Positions 52,785 through 59,473 of a DNA stretch of 64,000 nucleotides are shown here, in pieces. A program made the translations under genes and the position numbers. Each line of letters starts with the position of its first letter. Position 1 is the first letter of the stretch. This DNA is from Modestobacter sp. DSM 44400 (GTDB taxonomy: Bacteria; Actinomycetota; Actinomycetes; Mycobacteriales; Geodermatophilaceae). The notes beneath the pieces are model-generated. The model searched no databases and was not told the DNA's origin. It saw only the letters and a program-made list of their open reading frames with translations. Location of the stretch: positions 1 to 64,000 of the forward strand of contig NZ_FNOZ01000003.1 in NCBI RefSeq assembly GCF_900107175.1, written 5' to 3'.

Positions 52785-53270
52785 TCAGCGCGTCAGCTCC
52801 GCGGCGATCCGGGCGATGAGCCGGTCCGGCGTGCGCAGGTCGGCCGCGGTCACGAAGAGCACGCGCCAGCCGGCGGCCAGCAACCGGTTGAGGCGCTCCC
52901 GATCGGCGGCGAATTGGCCGGGCTCGCCGTGCCACAGTCCGTCGTACGCGACGGCCAGCCGGTGCTCCGGCCAGGCGAAGTCGACCCGGGCCACACACAC
53001 GGCCGTGGCGGATGGTGAACTGGGCGACCGGCGGTGGCAGCAGCGGCGAGCGGTGTAGCAGCGACCGCAGTCGCGTTTCCTGCGGTGTGCCCGCCAGCCC
53101 GTCGGCGAGTGCCGCCGTGCGTGCCTGCCGCTACCCGGCCCCGTGGTCACCGCCGCGGTCGCCCGGACGTCGACGAAGGTCGGCCACGCCGCTGCCAACG
53201 AACCGGTCGAGGGCGACTACGGCCTCCTCCAGTCCGCCGATGCCGACGAGGGCGACTGCCGTAACCCCCG
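52785..53270 (-). pseudogene. DUF559 protein, C-terminal fragment with frameshifts
   Basis: The end of the gene is well preserved: VARVDFAWPEHRLAVAYDGLWH and LNRLLAAGWRVLFVTAADL, the Vsr-like endonuclease fold of DUF559, stopping at 52785. Going upstream the family sequence hops frames: TPQETRLRSLLHRSPLLPPP then VAQFTIRHGR in one frame, with slippage at a GTGTGTGTG tract near 53000. VDVRATAAVTTGPGSGRHAR lies in a second frame and LEEAVVALDRFVGSG in a third. At least three frameshifts. The matching N-terminal fragment lies at 59115-59431 on the same strand, so about 5.8 kb of foreign DNA separates them. Confidence 0.8.
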
Positions 53271-53398
53271 GCGTCGTCACCGGCGTCCGCCGTCCCCGGG
53301 TCGGTTGCTCGGTTCAGAGCAGCTCGGCGGACTCACCGCCCCGGGATGACGGTCCTCGCTCTCCCCGGCGCGATGGCCGACACCACCACCGACCACCT

Positions 53399-53757
53399 CA
53401 GGCGCCGTCTGTGTGGTGCGCCGGGTCCGGCATGCCGCGGCCGATCTGTCGGCCGATCCGCGGGCCGGCCGGCGGCGCACCATCCCCCAAGAGCAACTCA
53501 CCTTGGCGCTGGATGGTGAACTCGACGCGGTCTACGGCTACTCCGTCATCGCCACCAACCTGCCCACCGACACTCCCGCCCAGGCCGTAGGCATCGAGGC
53601 CTGGTATCGCGGTCGCACCGACATCGAGGGCCGTTTCCGCGACGCCAAGCACGCTCAAGCACGCTCCGCCCTGATCCACCTGCCCTCGGCCGACCCGGGC
53701 GTGAACACCGCCTGGCTGTGGGCCGCGCTGCTCGCCCTGGCCCTGTCGGGCCGGGAC
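53399..53757 (+). mobile_element. IS1380-family transposase fragment
   Basis: The plus strand encodes a block of IS1380 transposase C-terminal half: RRTIPQEQLTLALDGELDAV, YGYSVIATNLPTDTPAQAV, RTDIEGRFRDAKHAQAR and GVNTAWLWAALLAL. It lacks the N-terminal and DDE portions and is cut off near 53757, where an unrelated transposase fragment starts on the other strand. Not functional. Confidence 0.75.
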
Positions 53758-53935
53758 TACCGGCGAATCCGGGGCAGATCGGCCTCGGCCTGGCGGATCA
53801 GGGCGGAGTCGGCGGTGTTGCCCGGCCAGGACCACGCCAGCACCGGGGTGCCGGCGCGGGTGACATCCCGATCATGCCTGCGGCAGGTCAGGCCGTAAGT
53901 CTTGGGCTTGCCGGACGTGCGGAACGCCGACCGCC
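53757..53935 (-). mobile_element. IS1634-like transposase fragment
   Basis: The minus strand reads a short piece resembling IS1634/IS4-type transposases: GKPKTYGL followed by VTRAGTPVLAWSWPGNTADS and ALIRQAEADLP (family form VTRDGIPVRVWxWPGNTxDS). About 55 codons remain, with degeneration near the start. It abuts the IS1380 fragment, so this edge of the island has been hit by more than one element. Confidence 0.65.
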
Positions 53936-53969
53936 GACTCCCGTCCTCGGCCCCGCGAACGACGAGGGA

Positions 53970-54734
53970 TCACACCTCGTGCACCACCCCACGGGAGTTG
54001 ACCGTCAGGGCCGCCGTGACCTGCTCGCTCGCGCTCCGCACCATGGCCCCGAAGTGCGCTTCCTCCGCCTCGGGGAAGCGATGGGCGGGCATGAAGAGAC
54101 TGAGCGACGCGACCGGCTGGCCCGGCCGACCGACCACGGCGGCGATCGACGCGACGTCCGCGCGCTGCTCGCCGCGTTGCACGGCATACCCGCGCTCGAC
54201 CACTCGGTCCAGCTCGGCATCGAAGTCCTTCATGGTGGTGATTGTCTCGGAGGTTAGCGCGCGCAGCTTGTCAGGCAGGTGCTGGCGAACTCGGTCCCGC
54301 GGCAGCGTCGCGAGGATCGCCTTGCCGTTGGCGCTCGCGTAGGCAGGCGACCGGCTGCCGATCGGCCAGTGGATGCGCACGACCTGCGTGGACTCAATGT
54401 CGTCGATTGTCACGACGTCGAGCCGGTCGAGCAACGCGAGGTGGACTGACTCCGTCGTACGCTCCGCCAGCCGCGTCATCGGCCCCAGGGCCGCTTCCCG
54501 CAGGCCGAACTCGCGGCCGATGCCGTTCGCGATCCGCAGCGGCTTCGTCGTCAGCACCCACCGTCCGGATTGGCTCTCGGACCGCTGGATCCAGTCGGCG
54601 TCGGCCAGGGTCCTCAGCGCACGCTGGGCGGTGGGCTTGGGGATCTCCAGCCGCCGCGCCAACTCGCTGACCCCGAGCGGCTGGTGACTGGCGATGAGTT
54701 CCAGAGCGCGCAGTGCTGTGGCCGCGGAACTCAC
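53970..54734 (-). CDS. IclR family transcriptional regulator
   Basis: 254 residues from GTG 54734. Winged-helix N-terminus (TALRALELIASHQPLGVSEL, then IPKPTAQRALRTLADADWI) followed by the IclR effector domain (SVHLALLDRLDVVTIDDIES, ASANGKAILATLPRD, GEQRADVASIAAVVG). Such regulators usually sit divergent to the catabolic genes they control and sense an acid or aromatic substrate. Here it faces the crotonase-permease-dehalogenase genes. A TAATGT hexamer 6 nt before the GTG suggests a leaderless transcript. It is the first intact gene of the island. Confidence 0.9.
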   Translation of the reverse strand: MSSAATALRALELIASHQPLGVSELARRLEIPKPTAQRALRTLADADWIQRSESQSGRWVLTTKPLRIANGIGREFGLREAALGPMTRLAERTTESVHLALLDRLDVVTIDDIESTQVVRIHWPIGSRSPAYASANGKAILATLPRDRVRQHLPDKLRALTSETITTMKDFDAELDRVVERGYAVQRGEQRADVASIAAVVGRPGQPVASLSLFMPAHRFPEAEEAHFGAMVRSASEQVTAALTVNSRGVVHEV

Positions 54735-54829
54735 CCGTTGACATTAACAGGGACAGATGACACGGTCGGACGCCACGCGCGTTCCGTAGTTCGATACTGC
54801 GTATCGCTGAACGTACCGAGGGGGCCCTC
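54735..54829. promoter_or_regulatory. iclR-crotonase divergent control region
   Basis: 95 bp containing TAATGT (minus strand, 54741-54746) as the iclR -10, and a 15-bp dyad cgata-ctgcg-tatcg near 54792-54806 that is a candidate IclR operator. On the plus strand GAGGGGG precedes the ATG at 54830. Operator role is inferred from position and symmetry. Confidence 0.5.
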
Positions 54830-55627
54830 ATGACGGCAGCAGCCGCCCCCACGTACGAGGTCGAGATGACGGGTCCCACCTCGATGCTGATCGACGGCGA
54901 GTGGGTGGAAGCGCTCGGAGGTCGAGTCATCTCCGCGATCAGTCGGTTCTTCCGCGCCGGTGGGGACCTCGACGAGCACCCGTCGCTCGACCCGGCCGAC
55001 GGCGCCCGTGAGCTCAGCCTCCGGATGCAACGCGTCTTGGACCGGTTCTCCCGGCTTCCGGCGGCGACCGTCGCGGCCCTCAACGGGCACGCGGTCGGCG
55101 GTGGTCATGAGATTGCCCTAGCCTGCGACCTCCGCGTGGCCGACGCCAGCAGCCGCCTCCTGCGCCCCGAGGTGGGCATGGGCCTGGTCCCGCCCTGGGG
55201 CGGCCTGGGCAGGATGCGCGAGCTGTTCGGACGAAACGGCGTACTGCAGGTGTTGCTCGTCGACAACCGCCTAGACGCCCACCGGGCTCGCGAGATCGGC
55301 TTGGTCGACGTGGTCGCCGAGGACTCCGCCGCCGAGGAAGCAACGCGCCTCACCCGCGCCGTCGCCGTCCTCCCACGCCCCTCGGTGCGAGCGGCCAAGC
55401 AGCTGCTCGCCCAGGACGCCTCGGCCCACGAGGTGGCCGAGGTGTTCGGCCGGCTCTGGCAGGGCGAGGAGCACCGCACCGTCCAGCAGGGCCGGCGTCA
55501 CCGCCGCCGCGACCCGCTCGACAGCGACGCCCGACCACCTACGGCCGACGCCCACGAGAGGCGACCGGATGACCCCGACGAGGATTCAACCACGACGCCC
55601 GTCAAGGAGGACGAGACCAGTGACTGA
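54830..55627 (+). CDS. Chimeric crotonase with aldehyde dehydrogenase-like N-terminus
   Basis: 265 residues. Residues 1-31 (ending SMLIDGEWVEALGG) look like the start of an aldehyde dehydrogenase. At about residue 33 the reading becomes a crotonase already past its first strands: SRFFRAGGDLDEHPSLD, AALNGHAVGGGHEIALACDLR and ARPEVGMG-type LLRPEVGMGLVPPWGG. The first ~50 crotonase residues are missing and the C-terminus runs into a charged, probably non-native tail after VFGRLWQGEEHR. A deletion probably fused an aldehyde dehydrogenase start to an inner crotonase segment, keeping the frame. Activity doubtful. Its end overlaps the permease start by 8 bp. Confidence 0.7.
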   Translation: MTAAAAPTYEVEMTGPTSMLIDGEWVEALGGRVISAISRFFRAGGDLDEHPSLDPADGARELSLRMQRVLDRFSRLPAATVAALNGHAVGGGHEIALACDLRVADASSRLLRPEVGMGLVPPWGGLGRMRELFGRNGVLQVLLVDNRLDAHRAREIGLVDVVAEDSAAEEATRLTRAVAVLPRPSVRAAKQLLAQDASAHEVAEVFGRLWQGEEHRTVQQGRRHRRRDPLDSDARPPTADAHERRPDDPDEDSTTTPVKEDETSD

Positions 55628-56942
55628 ACCATCAACCGCCATCCCAGCAGCCCCGCCAATCTCGGTGCGACGAGTGCTTCTCGCCAGCTTCGCGGGGACC
55701 ACGATCGAGTGGTACGACTTCTTCATCTTTGGCACCGCTGCCAGCCTGGTCTTGGGCCAGCTGTTCTTCAGTGCGGCCGGTGAGGTCGGGGGCACCCTCG
55801 CCGCACTGGCCACATTCGGGGTCGGCTTCGTGGCGCGTCCCGTCGGCGCGGTCGTGTGCGGCCACTACGGCGACCGCCTCGGCCGGAAGAAGATGCTGGT
55901 CGCCACCTTGCTCATCATGGGGGTCAGCACCTTCCTGGTCGGGGTGCTCCCCACCACCGACCAGATCGGCGTGCTGGCGCCCGTCCTCCTGGTGGTCCTG
56001 CGGCTCGCGCAGGGCTTCGCCGTCGGCGGCGAGTGGGGCGGCGCCGTCCTGATGGCGGTGGAGCACTCGCCGGAGGGACGTCGTGGGCTCTACGGCAGTG
56101 CACCACAGATGGGTGTGCCGGCCGGGCTGCTGATGGCCACGGGCGTCTTCGCACTGGTGTCGACCCTCCCGGACGAGCAGTTCCTCTCCTGGGGCTGGCG
56201 GGTCCCCTTCTTGCTGAGCGCCCTGCTGGTGATCGTGGGGCTGGTCGTCCGGCTCAAGGTCGCCGAGTCGCCTGACTTCGAGTCGATCATGAAGAGCGGG
56301 AGCCAGGCGAAGCTGCCGCTGCTCGACGCCATCAAGGAGCACCCCAAGGGGATCCTCATCGCCGCCGGAGCGCGGGTGGGGGAGACCGTGCAGTTCTACG
56401 TCGGGGCGGTCTTCATCATCACCTATGCGTCCTTGACGACCGACCTTTCCCGGAGCACGGTGCTCACGGGCATCCTGATCGCGGCCGCCCTGGAGCTGGT
56501 CACGATCCCGGTCTTCGCCCGGCTCTCCGACGTCTTCGGCCGCCGGCCCATCTACCTGTTCGGCACGGCCGGGGCGTTCGTGTTTGCCTATCCGTTCTTC
56601 CTGCTCGTCGACTCCGAGCAGCCGGTGCTGGTCTGGCTGGCCGCGGTGCTCGCGCTCGCGGTGTTCCACTCCGCCATGTACGCGCCCCAGGCCGCGTTCT
56701 TCTCTGAGCTGTTCCCCGCACGGGTGCGCTACAGCGGCGCCGCGTTCGGCTACCAGGTCACCGGCGCCATCGTAGGCGGGTTCACGCCGCTCGCCGCTGC
56801 GGCACTGCTGGCCGCCTACGACAACGCCGCCTGGCCGGTCGCCACCTACATTATGGTGTTCGCCGCGATCACCCTGGTCTCCGTCTTCGTCGCCCGGGAG
56901 ACCTACCGGGTCCGGACGAGCGCTCAAGACGCCACCACCTGA
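55620..56942 (+). CDS. MHS-family MFS permease, likely haloacid transporter
   Basis: 440 residues from GTG 55620, with a perfect AAGGAGGA site inside the previous gene's end. Twelve hydrophobic helices and metabolite:H+ symporter signatures: FAGTTIEWYDFFIFGTAASL, GHYGDRLGRKKMLVATL, RLAQGFAVGGEWGGAVLMAVE and WGWRVPFLLSALL. The characterised haloacid permease Deh4p of Burkholderia belongs to this subfamily and is encoded beside a dehalogenase, as here. Substrate is inferred from the neighbouring dehI; other monocarboxylates are possible. Confidence 0.85.
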   Translation: MTEPSTAIPAAPPISVRRVLLASFAGTTIEWYDFFIFGTAASLVLGQLFFSAAGEVGGTLAALATFGVGFVARPVGAVVCGHYGDRLGRKKMLVATLLIMGVSTFLVGVLPTTDQIGVLAPVLLVVLRLAQGFAVGGEWGGAVLMAVEHSPEGRRGLYGSAPQMGVPAGLLMATGVFALVSTLPDEQFLSWGWRVPFLLSALLVIVGLVVRLKVAESPDFESIMKSGSQAKLPLLDAIKEHPKGILIAAGARVGETVQFYVGAVFIITYASLTTDLSRSTVLTGILIAAALELVTIPVFARLSDVFGRRPIYLFGTAGAFVFAYPFFLLVDSEQPVLVWLAAVLALAVFHSAMYAPQAAFFSELFPARVRYSGAAFGYQVTGAIVGGFTPLAAAALLAAYDNAAWPVATYIMVFAAITLVSVFVARETYRVRTSAQDATT

Positions 56943-56988
56943 CGGCCCGACGACCACCGTCGCCCCGCCCATCGGAGAGAGGTTCGCG

Positions 56989-57891
56989 ATGCCCGCTCGC
57001 TCGACAGCAGCCATGTTCCCCCAGCTCGACCAGGAGACGGCCTCGGGAGAGATCGCCGAGCTCTACGCCGACATCCGCGACACCCTCCGGGTGCCGTGGG
57101 TGGCCTTCGCGATCCGCGTCATGGCGCAGTTCGGGTCCTACGTGCCGCAGGCATGGGGCGCACTCAAGCCCCTCGTCGCGACCCAGTACGCGGAGGACGC
57201 CGCCGACCGGATCCGCCGGGCGTCCATCCTCGACGGGCCACCTCCACCCGACCCGCGTCCGCGGCTGCGCGAGCAGGGCTGGAGCGAGGAGGACATCGCG
57301 GGCGTCCAACTGGCGCTGGACGCCTTGAACTACGGCAACCCGAAGTACCTCATACTGATTACGGCGTGGAACGAGGCCTGGCACGAGCGGGCTGCTGGCG
57401 ACCCCAACCATCCACTGACGAGTTCCGCCGCAGCGCCGCTGCCTTACGGTCTCCCGGACGGTGTCGAGCCGTTCCACCTGGTCGACCCCGACGCCGCCCC
57501 GAAGGAGGTGCAGGAGCTGCTGCGCGAGGCGCGCGACGTCCTGCTGCACCACGGTCCCGCGAGTGACTACCGGGTGCTCGCGGCGTGGCCCGACCTTCTC
57601 CGGGTCGCGGTCGAGGACGTCCTGCGGCCCGTCGCACTCACCTCCGAGTACGAGGAGACCACCCGCCGGATCCGCGAGATCGCCCGCGAGGAGGTCGCCG
57701 GCCTGACCGGGGTCGGCGGGGTCTCTCGCCGCGACCTCGAGGAGTCGATGAGCCCGACGGACATCGCCGGCCTGACCGGGGTGCTGTTCATGTACAACCG
57801 GTTCATCGCCGACATCACCGTGGCGATCATCCGGCTCCAGCAAGCGTTCGACGGAGGGGCCTCCGCCGTCGAGAACAAGTTCCCCGCCTGA
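56989..57891 (+). CDS. dehI: DehI-family 2-haloacid dehalogenase
   Basis: 300 residues, the size of Pseudomonas DehI (296). DehI proteins are pseudo-dimers of two related helical halves that hydrolyse both D- and L-2-haloacids by direct attack of water. The halves begin IAELYADIRDTLRVPWVAFAI and VQELLREARDVLLHHG. The second half holds SDYRVLAAWPDLL, whose Asp193 aligns in position with the catalytic Asp189 of DehI. Residues RASILDGPPPP to NYGNPKYLILITAW link them. ATG 56989 follows GGAGAGAGG. It lies 46 bp after the permease gene. Assignment rests on family pattern and context. Confidence 0.8.
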   Translation: MPARSTAAMFPQLDQETASGEIAELYADIRDTLRVPWVAFAIRVMAQFGSYVPQAWGALKPLVATQYAEDAADRIRRASILDGPPPPDPRPRLREQGWSEEDIAGVQLALDALNYGNPKYLILITAWNEAWHERAAGDPNHPLTSSAAAPLPYGLPDGVEPFHLVDPDAAPKEVQELLREARDVLLHHGPASDYRVLAAWPDLLRVAVEDVLRPVALTSEYEETTRRIREIAREEVAGLTGVGGVSRRDLEESMSPTDIAGLTGVLFMYNRFIADITVAIIRLQQAFDGGASAVENKFPA

Positions 57892-58031
57892 GCGTCGATC
57901 CGCCGATCGGCATTCTCAGTGACGTGATCCTGATCGGTGGAATGGTTCCCGGCGGTGGGCGTGCGGTAGTCGCCGGTCTGTCCGGCTTCTCCACGTCGGT
58001 CGTTCCTTGCGCTCGGTGCTGGGCTGGGTGG

Positions 58032-58840
58032 TCAGGCCGCGACCGCGCCCGGTGGGCCGAGGGCGGCGGTGGACAGCTGCTCGTCGCCGGTCTGCCAGGG
58101 CCAGTTCTGCGGCAGGTACAGGCGTAGTTGTCGGGCGGAGGAGGCGATCCAGGCCGGGACGGCGATGAGCTGCGCGCGGATCGTCGCCGTTCGGGCCTTG
58201 GCGTGGAACGCCCCGGCCAGGGCACCGGCGGCGCGGGTGAGGTTGAAACGCGATGGCCGCGCAGACCAGCCAGGCGGCGTTCGCGGTGAACTTTCCCGAG
58301 GGCAGGTGGGCCAGCGGCCCTGCCCTGAGCTCGGCGATGACCTGCTCGACGATGGCGTGGTCGCGGTGGGCGGCCGCGGCGGCCGGCATCGACAGGGGTG
58401 AGTCGGTGAAGACGGCGTGATGCCGGTACTCCCCGAACAGTGCGGTCTGCCCGGGCGGCACCGACGCGGGGTTCAGCCGTTTGACCCGCCGGACGATCAG
58501 CCGGGCGGTCACGTGCTCGGCCCTGCGGCGGAAGGTGAACGCGGTGAACTCGGTTTCGGCGACCTCGGCGTCGGAGATCCAGCGCTGCTCGGCCTCCTTC
58601 CAGATCTCGCCCGGATAGCGGATCGGGGTCCACGCGTCCTCGCCGATCGCCGCGATGGCGCGACGGACCGCAGGGTCCACCCGGGCGGTGATCGAGAAGC
58701 GGGCCCCCCGTCGGACGCAGCGACCACCTTGTGGTTGTAGAACGCCGAGTCGGCGCGCATCGTGATCGTCCCGTCGGGCGTCGCGCCGGCCGCCCGGGCG
58801 GTGGCCAACGCGTCGCCGATGAGCCGGAACGCGCCTGTTC
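58032..58840 (-). mobile_element. IS1380-family transposase fragment, frameshifted
   Basis: Minus-strand IS1380 transposase lacking its N-terminal third. TITMRADSAFYNHKVVAAS leads to a frame change in a G-run near 58710; then FSITARVDPAVRRAIAAIGE, RLIVRRVKRLNP and HAVFTDSPLSM. A second change, from an extra T near 58249, is needed to reach the normal end NLTRAAGALAGAFHAKART, stopping at 58032. Dead. Between 57892 and 58031 no gene is visible. Differs from the plus-strand IS1380 fragment at the other island edge. Confidence 0.8.
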
Positions 58841-59045
58841 AAGGCCGAACTGATCCGCCAACCGAGGCCCCTGGCGCGGCATCAACAACGTCGAGTACAT
58901 CGACTGGTTCAACCACCTCCGGCTGCACGGCGAGATCGGCCATGTCCCACCGGCCGAGTACGAAGCCGCCCACGCGGCCCTGCAACCCGCCCCGGCGACC
59001 GCCGGAGCGTGAGAACCCGGTCTCCACCAAACCCGGGGGTTGACA
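58832..59045 (+). mobile_element. IS3-family transposase C-terminus and element end
   Basis: Plus strand reads LFKAELIRQ, then after a frame change GPWRGINNVEYIDWFNHLRL and IGHVPPAEYEAAHAA, the rve integrase end of IS3 OrfB. The segment closes with ccaaacccgggggttgaca, typical of IS3 terminal repeats ending at 59045. DUF559 sequence resumes just beyond, so this is the right boundary of the island. Confidence 0.75.
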
Positions 59046-59114
59046 CTCGGAGGAGCCGTTCCCAGGACGGGGCAGCTGCGAGGGGCTGCTCTCGGGCATA
59101 CGGTCGGCCAGTGC

Positions 59115-59431
59115 TGGGCCAGGACAGAGTCGACCACGTCGTCGTGCGGACCGGCCGGGCCGACGCTCCAGAGCACCGCCGCCCTCCGGCCGGGCACCAC
59201 GGCGCCGGGCAGCAGCAGCGCCGCAGCGGCCCGGGGGCGCACCTGGTGGTCCACCGACACGGCCGGGCAGGCGTAGACGTCGCGGAACAGCCGGCGCCAG
59301 GTCGAACCGCGCAGCTCGGTCGCCGTCAGCATTCCGTCGGCCACCGCGGCCGAGCCGCGGAACACCCGGCCGGACAGCGCGCCGGGGTGCGACGGGCGGG
59401 TACGGGCACGACGGGAGCCTGGCCGACCGAC
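59115..59431 (-). pseudogene. DUF559 protein, N-terminal fragment
   Basis: Minus strand encodes the N-terminal domain that precedes DUF559 nuclease domains in actinobacteria: HPGALSGRVFRGSAAVADGM, LTATELRGSTWRRLFRDVYA and RAAAALLLPGAVVPGRRAAV, ending near DDVVDSVL where IS3 and other sequence begins. No convincing start codon remains upstream. It complements the C-terminal fragment at 52785-53270: both are on the minus strand, in the correct order, with roughly 45 middle residues lost. Confidence 0.75.
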
Positions 59432-59473
59432 CCGCGCCGCGGCCCGGTTCTCCCGTCCACAGGCGGCCGCCTC

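Follow-up and report, generated by a model that had tools for sequence, protein, structure and literature searches.

A gene block in a 64,000-nucleotide stretch of DNA from the actinobacterium Modestobacter sp. DSM 44400 (Geodermatophilaceae; positions 1 to 64,000 of contig NZ_FNOZ01000003.1, assembly GCF_900107175.1), referred to below as the window, is most probably an acquired catabolic island for the use of 2-haloacids. The block encodes a regulator of the IclR family, a permease of the metabolite:H+ symporter (MHS) family and a Group I haloacid dehalogenase of the DehI family, is bordered by insertion sequence (IS) remnants, and interrupts a host gene of the DUF559 family (Table 1). The interpretation draws on the identities of the genes, the conserved active site of the dehalogenase, the interrupted host gene, the absence of the block from related genomes, and a layout common to the window and Pseudonocardia nigra DSM 104088. 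The three genes and their IS borders had been noticed in an earlier, sequence-only reading, which placed the ends of the block at 53399 and 59045; all three genes gave profile matches, and the ends lie within ~100 bases of the edges found here.

Table 1. Features of the haloacid block and of its borders in the window
Feature	Position	Strand	Basis
C-terminal half of host DUF559-family gene, itself frameshifted; left edge	52785..53300	-	DUF559 hmmscan; relatives
IS1380/IS4-type transposase remnant, C-terminal part	53416..53745	+	NCBIfam IS1380, 35.6 bits
IS1634 transposase remnant	53775..53951	-	tblastn; weak profile match
IclR-family regulator, divergent from catabolic genes	53970..54734	-	IclR_C, HTH_IclR; likeness to P. 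nigra
Shared control region, candidate operator	54735..54829	.	block common with P. nigra
Candidate operator	54800-54819	.	16/20 bases common with P. nigra
Probable fusion scar, aldehyde dehydrogenase start and truncated enoyl-CoA hydratase	54830..55627	+	ECH_1; weak aldehyde dehydrogenase matches
MHS-family metabolite:H+ symporter, proposed haloacid permease	55620..56942	+	TIGR00883; likeness to DehI-linked MHS
DehI / DL-2-haloacid dehalogenase, Group I	56989..57891	+	PF10778; 4n2x, 3bjx; active-site residues
Broken IS1380 transposase, pieces in >1 frame	57919..58838	-	three profile-matching pieces
IS3-family transposase C-terminal tail	58854..59009	+	end of NCBIfam IS3 profile
N-terminal half of same DUF559-family gene; right edge	59100..59470	-	8 relatives

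The product of the dehalogenase gene matches the PF10778 profile (E 5e-14, 53 bits, cut-off 28.9), as the sequence-only reading had anticipated. It resembles at full length the solved DL-DEX Mb of Methylobacterium sp. CPA1 (PDB 4n2x, 3wj8; 4n2x matched over residues 3-298 of 300, E 1.7e-110) and DehI of Pseudomonas putida PP3 (3bjx, E 1.1e-78). The match to HadD, a D-specific member with the same fold, is much weaker (E 3.2e-29, against 1.7e-110 for the DL enzymes), and no NCBIfam model was matched. The water-activating pair named for these enzymes consists of an Asp (D189 of DehI, D205 of HadD) and an Asn (N131 of HadD); W34, F37 and S188 of DehE and a Tyr (Y134 of HadD) are also named, and a Thr is essential in DL enzymes (PMC5780510, PMC4376737). 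All 7 mapped residues are present in the window protein, where D193 and N117 align with the Asp/Asn pair, and W37, F40, S192, Y120 and T65 with the Trp, Phe, Ser, conserved Tyr and essential Thr, respectively. The residues are invariant in 13 DehI proteins (that of the window and 12 others), except for S192, replaced by T in one. Judged by these matches, the window enzyme is a DehI family member, and is predicted to be a DL-2-haloacid dehalogenase. It has in common with DL-DEX Mb and the P. putida enzyme the all-helical two-repeat family, the catalytic Asp-Asn pair, and the Trp, Tyr and Ser residues; it differs in residing in an actinobacterium, and its activity and stereochemistry are predictions. 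The six DL-DEXi enzymes listed in a review come from Pseudomonas, Methylobacterium, Rhizobium and Alcaligenes (PMC8554231).

The interrupted DUF559 gene had been overlooked in the sequence-only reading. The left half scores 20.0 bits by hmmscan (cut-off 20.6), and its last ~70-90 residues are 68-86% identical to the gene found in intact order in relatives; the homology stops between 53283 and ~53330. The right half is 49-58% identical, at the amino acid level, to the N-terminal half of the gene in 8 relatives, and DNA homology resumes at 59134-59178. A neighbouring thioredoxin-like gene is present in 23/23 genomes of the genus. Among the 22 genomes other than that of the window, the locus was compared in 20 (G098 and G099 left aside), and was readable in 18, two loci (L078, L097) being too short. 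FAD-oxidoreductase and thioredoxin genes are both present in the 18 readable loci, and no match to any of the four cassette proteins was found between them in any of the 18. A minus-strand DUF559-type gene is located at the site in 8 of these loci, with halves spaced by 49-94 bases, versus ~5.8 kb (~53.3-59.1 kb) in the window; in the other 10 loci no DUF559 match was seen at the site. The gene that harbours the island is thus strain-variable. With flanks of only 67-78% likeness, the exact junctions and any target duplication cannot be read.

No DehI match was found in the 22 other genomes of the genus. At wider ranks, and with the genome of the window counted each time, genomes with a match numbered 2 in the family (112 searched; the second is G044), 6 in the order (397 searched) and 17 in the phylum (396 searched). 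Many of the phylum matches are remote (E 1e-3 to 1e-24), and for order and phylum the scoring was limited to 5 candidates per genome. Scanning genome contigs for DehI yielded 11 named loci. In a tree drawn without five distant or partial sequences (L008, L009, L024, L025, L038), the window DehI groups with the P. nigra and five Rhizobiales proteins, apart from the Geodermatophilaceae copies (support 100/100); its exact place within the group is supported 86/85 only. The nearest DehI found, that of P. nigra, is 66-68% identical. GC content was rejected as proof of foreign origin, because the range of the cassette (68.7-72%) and that of five flanking genes (69.7-76.9%) overlap. Alternatively, the locus may be native and vertically inherited, the relatives having lost it, and the IS copies may be bystanders. 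The GC content of the block, not distinct from that of all its neighbours, fits this explanation. The explanation is nevertheless very improbable: 8 relatives have in one piece the gene that the block divides, the 22 other genomes searched in the genus have no DehI, and the 100/100 split separates the window protein from the copies of Geodermatophilus chilensis and of contig C56 of the Modestobacter genome (see below). The sequence-only reading had suggested a recent acquisition. Acquisition holds, the cassette being absent from all 18 readable loci and DehI from all 22 genomes; recency is not supported, in view of the distance to the nearest DehI, the decayed IS copies and the overlapping GC content.

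Within the data searched, the layout of the cassette is common only to the window and P. nigra (locus L029). Order and strands of the IclR gene and of the MHS-DehI pair are alike, the IclR proteins at the equivalent place are 58% identical, and the control regions are similar. P. nigra differs in that its MHS gene lacks the middle (~residues 60-342), in showing no match to enoyl-CoA hydratase, and in carrying a selenoprotein-like gene, GcvH and Lpd ~1.7 kb downstream of the cassette. The window regulator features both IclR_C (E 7.6e-40, 136.7 bits, cut-off 24) and HTH_IclR (E 4.7e-10, 39.5 bits, cut-off 22), and is an IclR family member. In the region between the divergent genes, a block of 20 bases is alike in the window and P. 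nigra at 16 positions, a figure equalled in 1 of 200 shuffles, and is a candidate operator. A 6-3-6 palindrome at 54792-54806 was rejected as an operator by itself, not being significant (139 of 1000 shuffles).

The permease gene has a GTG start preceded by AAGGAGG, as read by eye. Its product covers the whole TIGR00883 profile (1-400; E 2.1e-125), at a score, 418.9 bits, slightly below the curated cut-off of 443.45. The protein is 48-53% identical to the DehI-adjacent MHS proteins of three Rhizobiales loci, and 74.5% identical over the 55 residues remaining at one end of the P. nigra MHS. MHS paralogues of the genus are distant (partial DNA matches, <=71% among top hits). In all but one of the 11 named loci, a gene for a transporter lies near DehI. 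These are MHS genes in four of the loci (L031, L032, L034 and P. nigra L029, in fragments in the last), sodium:solute symporter (SSF) genes in six (L030, L033, L035, L036, L038, L039; in pieces only in L036 and L038); no transporter gene was found near DehI in L037. DehI thus goes together with an uptake gene as a general rule, which supports a role of the window MHS in haloacid uptake. From its neighbourhood, the protein is a putative haloacid permease.

The three Rhizobiales loci (Phyllobacterium trifolii, L032; a Xanthobacteraceae metagenome-assembled genome (MAG), L031; a Bradyrhizobiaceae MAG, L034) resemble the window in having DehI proteins 58-59% identical to that of the window and an adjacent MHS gene on the same strand. 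They differ in that DehI precedes MHS, and the divergent regulator is TetR-like by eye. In Burkholderia MBA4, deh4a-deh4p is a haloacid operon (PMC3552994), in which, as in the window, a dehalogenase gene adjoins a gene for a major-facilitator haloacid permease. Deh4a (DehIVa) is a Group II, HAD-type enzyme (PMC8554231), in contrast to the Group I enzyme of the window, where moreover the permease gene comes first and an IclR gene is divergent; Deh4p itself is likened by description. Deh4p and DehI had been called known partners: the partner of Deh4p is Deh4a, as stated in these sources, and what remains of the claim is the neighbourhood of DehI and MHS genes in the three Rhizobiales loci and in P. 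nigra. Cassettes made by a dehalogenase and a permease are already known, and the window adds another one, rather than a new system. Literature searches retrieved no paper linking haloacids with Geodermatophilaceae, and, on trichloroacetate, nothing judged relevant.

An open reading frame (ORF) missed by the sequence-only reading lies between the IclR and MHS genes, and overlaps the start of the permease gene by 8 bases. It matches ECH_1 (E 6.5e-25) from profile position 42 onward. Of 12 plasmid records matched by its first 33 codons (~54830-54925), 9 carry an annotated aldehyde dehydrogenase at that place; all these matches are weak (E 0.3-7), as are those to two PDB aldehyde dehydrogenases (E ~0.5). 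Taken as a whole, the matches suggest a deletion that put an aldehyde dehydrogenase start in frame with the interior of an enoyl-CoA hydratase gene, leaving the frame open to the permease. The crotonase part is likely non-functional, because the ORF looks like a deletion fusion, and the fused product is probably not a working enzyme. The Nonomuraea MHS locus described below was tried as the undeleted ancestor and rejected, as tblastn gave no IclR, enoyl-CoA hydratase or DehI match.

The scar admits an operon of different purpose, serving detoxification or co-metabolism of a different substrate, halogenated or linked to an aldehyde (a haloalcohol or haloalkane, for instance, converted via aldehyde dehydrogenase to a haloacid and then processed by DehI), of which the last steps remain. 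An aldehyde dehydrogenase start right after the IclR control region, together with the hydratase remnant, denotes that at least two more genes were once there, and there are haloalkane routes where a haloacid dehalogenase is fed by an aldehyde dehydrogenase. Yet the dehydrogenase piece measures 33 codons with weak matches, the block includes neither a haloalkane dehalogenase nor an alcohol dehydrogenase, and no recognisable sequence of either lost gene was found between IclR and MHS in P. nigra; this explanation is rather unlikely. The cassette may otherwise be a former haloacid operon now useless, superseded by the C56 locus; the scar, the IS copies in pieces and the P. nigra permease without its middle would be stages of that loss. 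The fused ORF, the missing P. nigra MHS middle, and the second DehI on C56, accompanied by an SSF symporter and a HAD protein resembling L-2-haloacid dehalogenases, all fit decay. Against it, no stop interrupts IclR, MHS or DehI, all three of full length, DehI retains all the mapped residues, and ratios of nonsynonymous to synonymous substitutions (dN/dS) versus P. nigra are ~0.36 for DehI (0.229/0.641) and ~0.32 for IclR (0.386/1.202); this reading has a low probability. Intact genes had been taken to imply selection: IclR, MHS and DehI are intact indeed, the fourth ORF is not. The case for selection rests on the open frames and on the DehI ratio; this pairwise ratio reflects constraint averaged over both lineages, and tells nothing of the present host.

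Several results weigh against the proposed catabolic island. The closest MHS found (56%) is that of Nonomuraea, closer than any intact DehI-linked MHS (<=53%), and the Nonomuraea record holds no DehI match. The substrate of the permease is consequently not fixed by kinship. The window IclR matched no single-function NCBIfam model above cut-off; the equivalog of BhcR, a glyoxylate-responsive IclR protein, scored 144.8 bits (cut-off 350). Scanning of 53900-58000 revealed no sigma-70-like promoter sites; three terminator-like sites all fall within the MHS gene. As its first ORF is a scar, part or all of the operon may no longer work.

An island for 2-haloacid use remains the preferred explanation, with the following proposed substrate, transport specificity, regulation and order of events. 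The MHS proton symporter would import short haloacids such as chloroacetate, 2-chloropropionate and similar compounds. DehI would swap the halogen, chlorine or bromine, for a hydroxyl in one step, on either enantiomer, by means of a water molecule activated by D193 with the help of N117, and the products, glycolate or lactate, would enter central metabolism. The product of the divergent IclR gene may regulate the operon through the intergenic region between them. IS elements may have carried the block into the DUF559 gene, or rearranged it there, and would have decayed afterwards; a deletion may have joined the aldehyde dehydrogenase start to the hydratase gene, keeping the frame into the permease gene.

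Four IS fragments, of the IS1380, IS1634, IS1380 and IS3 families, were found where the sequence-only reading had located them. Their scores fall far below full-length cut-offs, and all four are thus remnants. The left IS1380/IS4-like remnant covers profile positions 273-371 of 419 (cut-off 180 bits). The IS1634 remnant is weak by profile (E 0.05); by tblastn, which retrieved 13 plasmid records (best E 5e-8), its sequence assignment is firm, 6 of 8 rows among the matches listed being named IS1634 transposase. The right IS1380 consists of three open pieces (93.3, 28.1 and 15.2 bits), and other copies in the same genome are up to 73% identical. The IS3 tail (20.8 bits, cut-off 160; E 1.9e-4) spans profile positions 346-369 of 369. 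A composite IS1380 transposon, marked by paired IS copies and a target-site duplication, was considered and rejected: the remnants belong to three families, and the left and right IS1380 pieces share just 36 aligned residues (E 0.002).

A second haloacid locus resides outside the window, on contig C56 of the same genome (L040:1352-6430, minus strand). It encodes an SSF symporter, an L-2-haloacid-dehalogenase-like HAD-type protein, a DehI 46% identical to that of the window, a PrdB/GrdB-like protein matching PF07355 (GRDB), and GcvH. The stop of the GRDB-like frame falls at one identical place in three genomes, as TAG in the two Geodermatophilaceae (this one and G. chilensis) and as TGA in P. 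nigra; beyond the stop the frame continues with a conserved PWCTHTV, which yields a UxxC motif, a feature of the GrdB family (PMC13188914). Read through, the protein scores 147-162 bits against PrdB (TIGR04483; cut-off 300). Six PF07355 places were found in 5 of 108 genomes of the family, all with TAG at that position. One of the others in this genome, on contig C181 (L123, ~59.4-60.7 kb), has an in-frame TAG and directly follows a gene for a HAD-type protein ~30% like that of C56, with an alpha/beta hydrolase nearby by eye. In P. nigra, the PrdB/GrdB-like gene with TGA is followed by GcvH and a dihydrolipoyl-dehydrogenase-like gene (L029:6953-10086). A SelB-like gene (by eye) and a selenocysteine tRNA (tRNA-Sec; ARAGORN, anticodon tca) are found directly upstream of DehI in a Hyphomicrobiales MAG (L030:4691-6739), a locus in which no PrdB/GrdB-like match was found.

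The Modestobacter genome contains a tRNA-Sec match (66.9 bits, gathering 47) with anticodon CTA, called tRNA-Pyl by ARAGORN, and on the same contig a SelB match (276.9 bits, cut-off 242.25); as controls, 5 of 14 well-known genomes exceeded the tRNA-Sec cut-off and 2 the SelB cut-off. UAG is a selenocysteine codon in Geodermatophilaceae, where formate dehydrogenase, UGSC-motif proteins and AhpC are named (PMC5330540). Folds downstream of the UAG/UGA codons, compared as bacterial selenocysteine insertion sequences, did not surpass shuffled sequences (z 0.37, -0.10, -1.44). In the literature searched no link between a PrdB/GrdB-like selenoprotein and haloacid dehalogenases was found, which is far from proof of absence; 'haloacid' and 'dehalogen' do not occur in the portion of a 2026 review (PMC13188914) covered. 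Tentatively, this microorganism could be a haloacid specialist with two Group I loci, in which the C56 selenoprotein, read through UAG by a CUA tRNA-Sec, would run a reductive, lipoyl-linked haloacid step, possibly on more heavily halogenated haloacids beyond the hydrolytic enzymes; as the nearest kin of the window cassette, in P. nigra, adjoins such a module with UGA instead of UAG, cassette and module would belong to one transferable kit.

Intact Group I cassettes that combine an MHS permease with a divergent IclR gene are now extended to Geodermatophilaceae, and the split DUF559 gene provides a clear insertion site for studying the arrival of the cassette. DehI adjoins a PrdB/GrdB-like gene in three actinobacterial genomes, with UAG in two Geodermatophilaceae and UGA in Pseudonocardia, and a selenium-dependent step in haloacid breakdown is therefore directly testable. 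The larger gain may be this selenoprotein-linked step beside the cassette, rather than the cassette.

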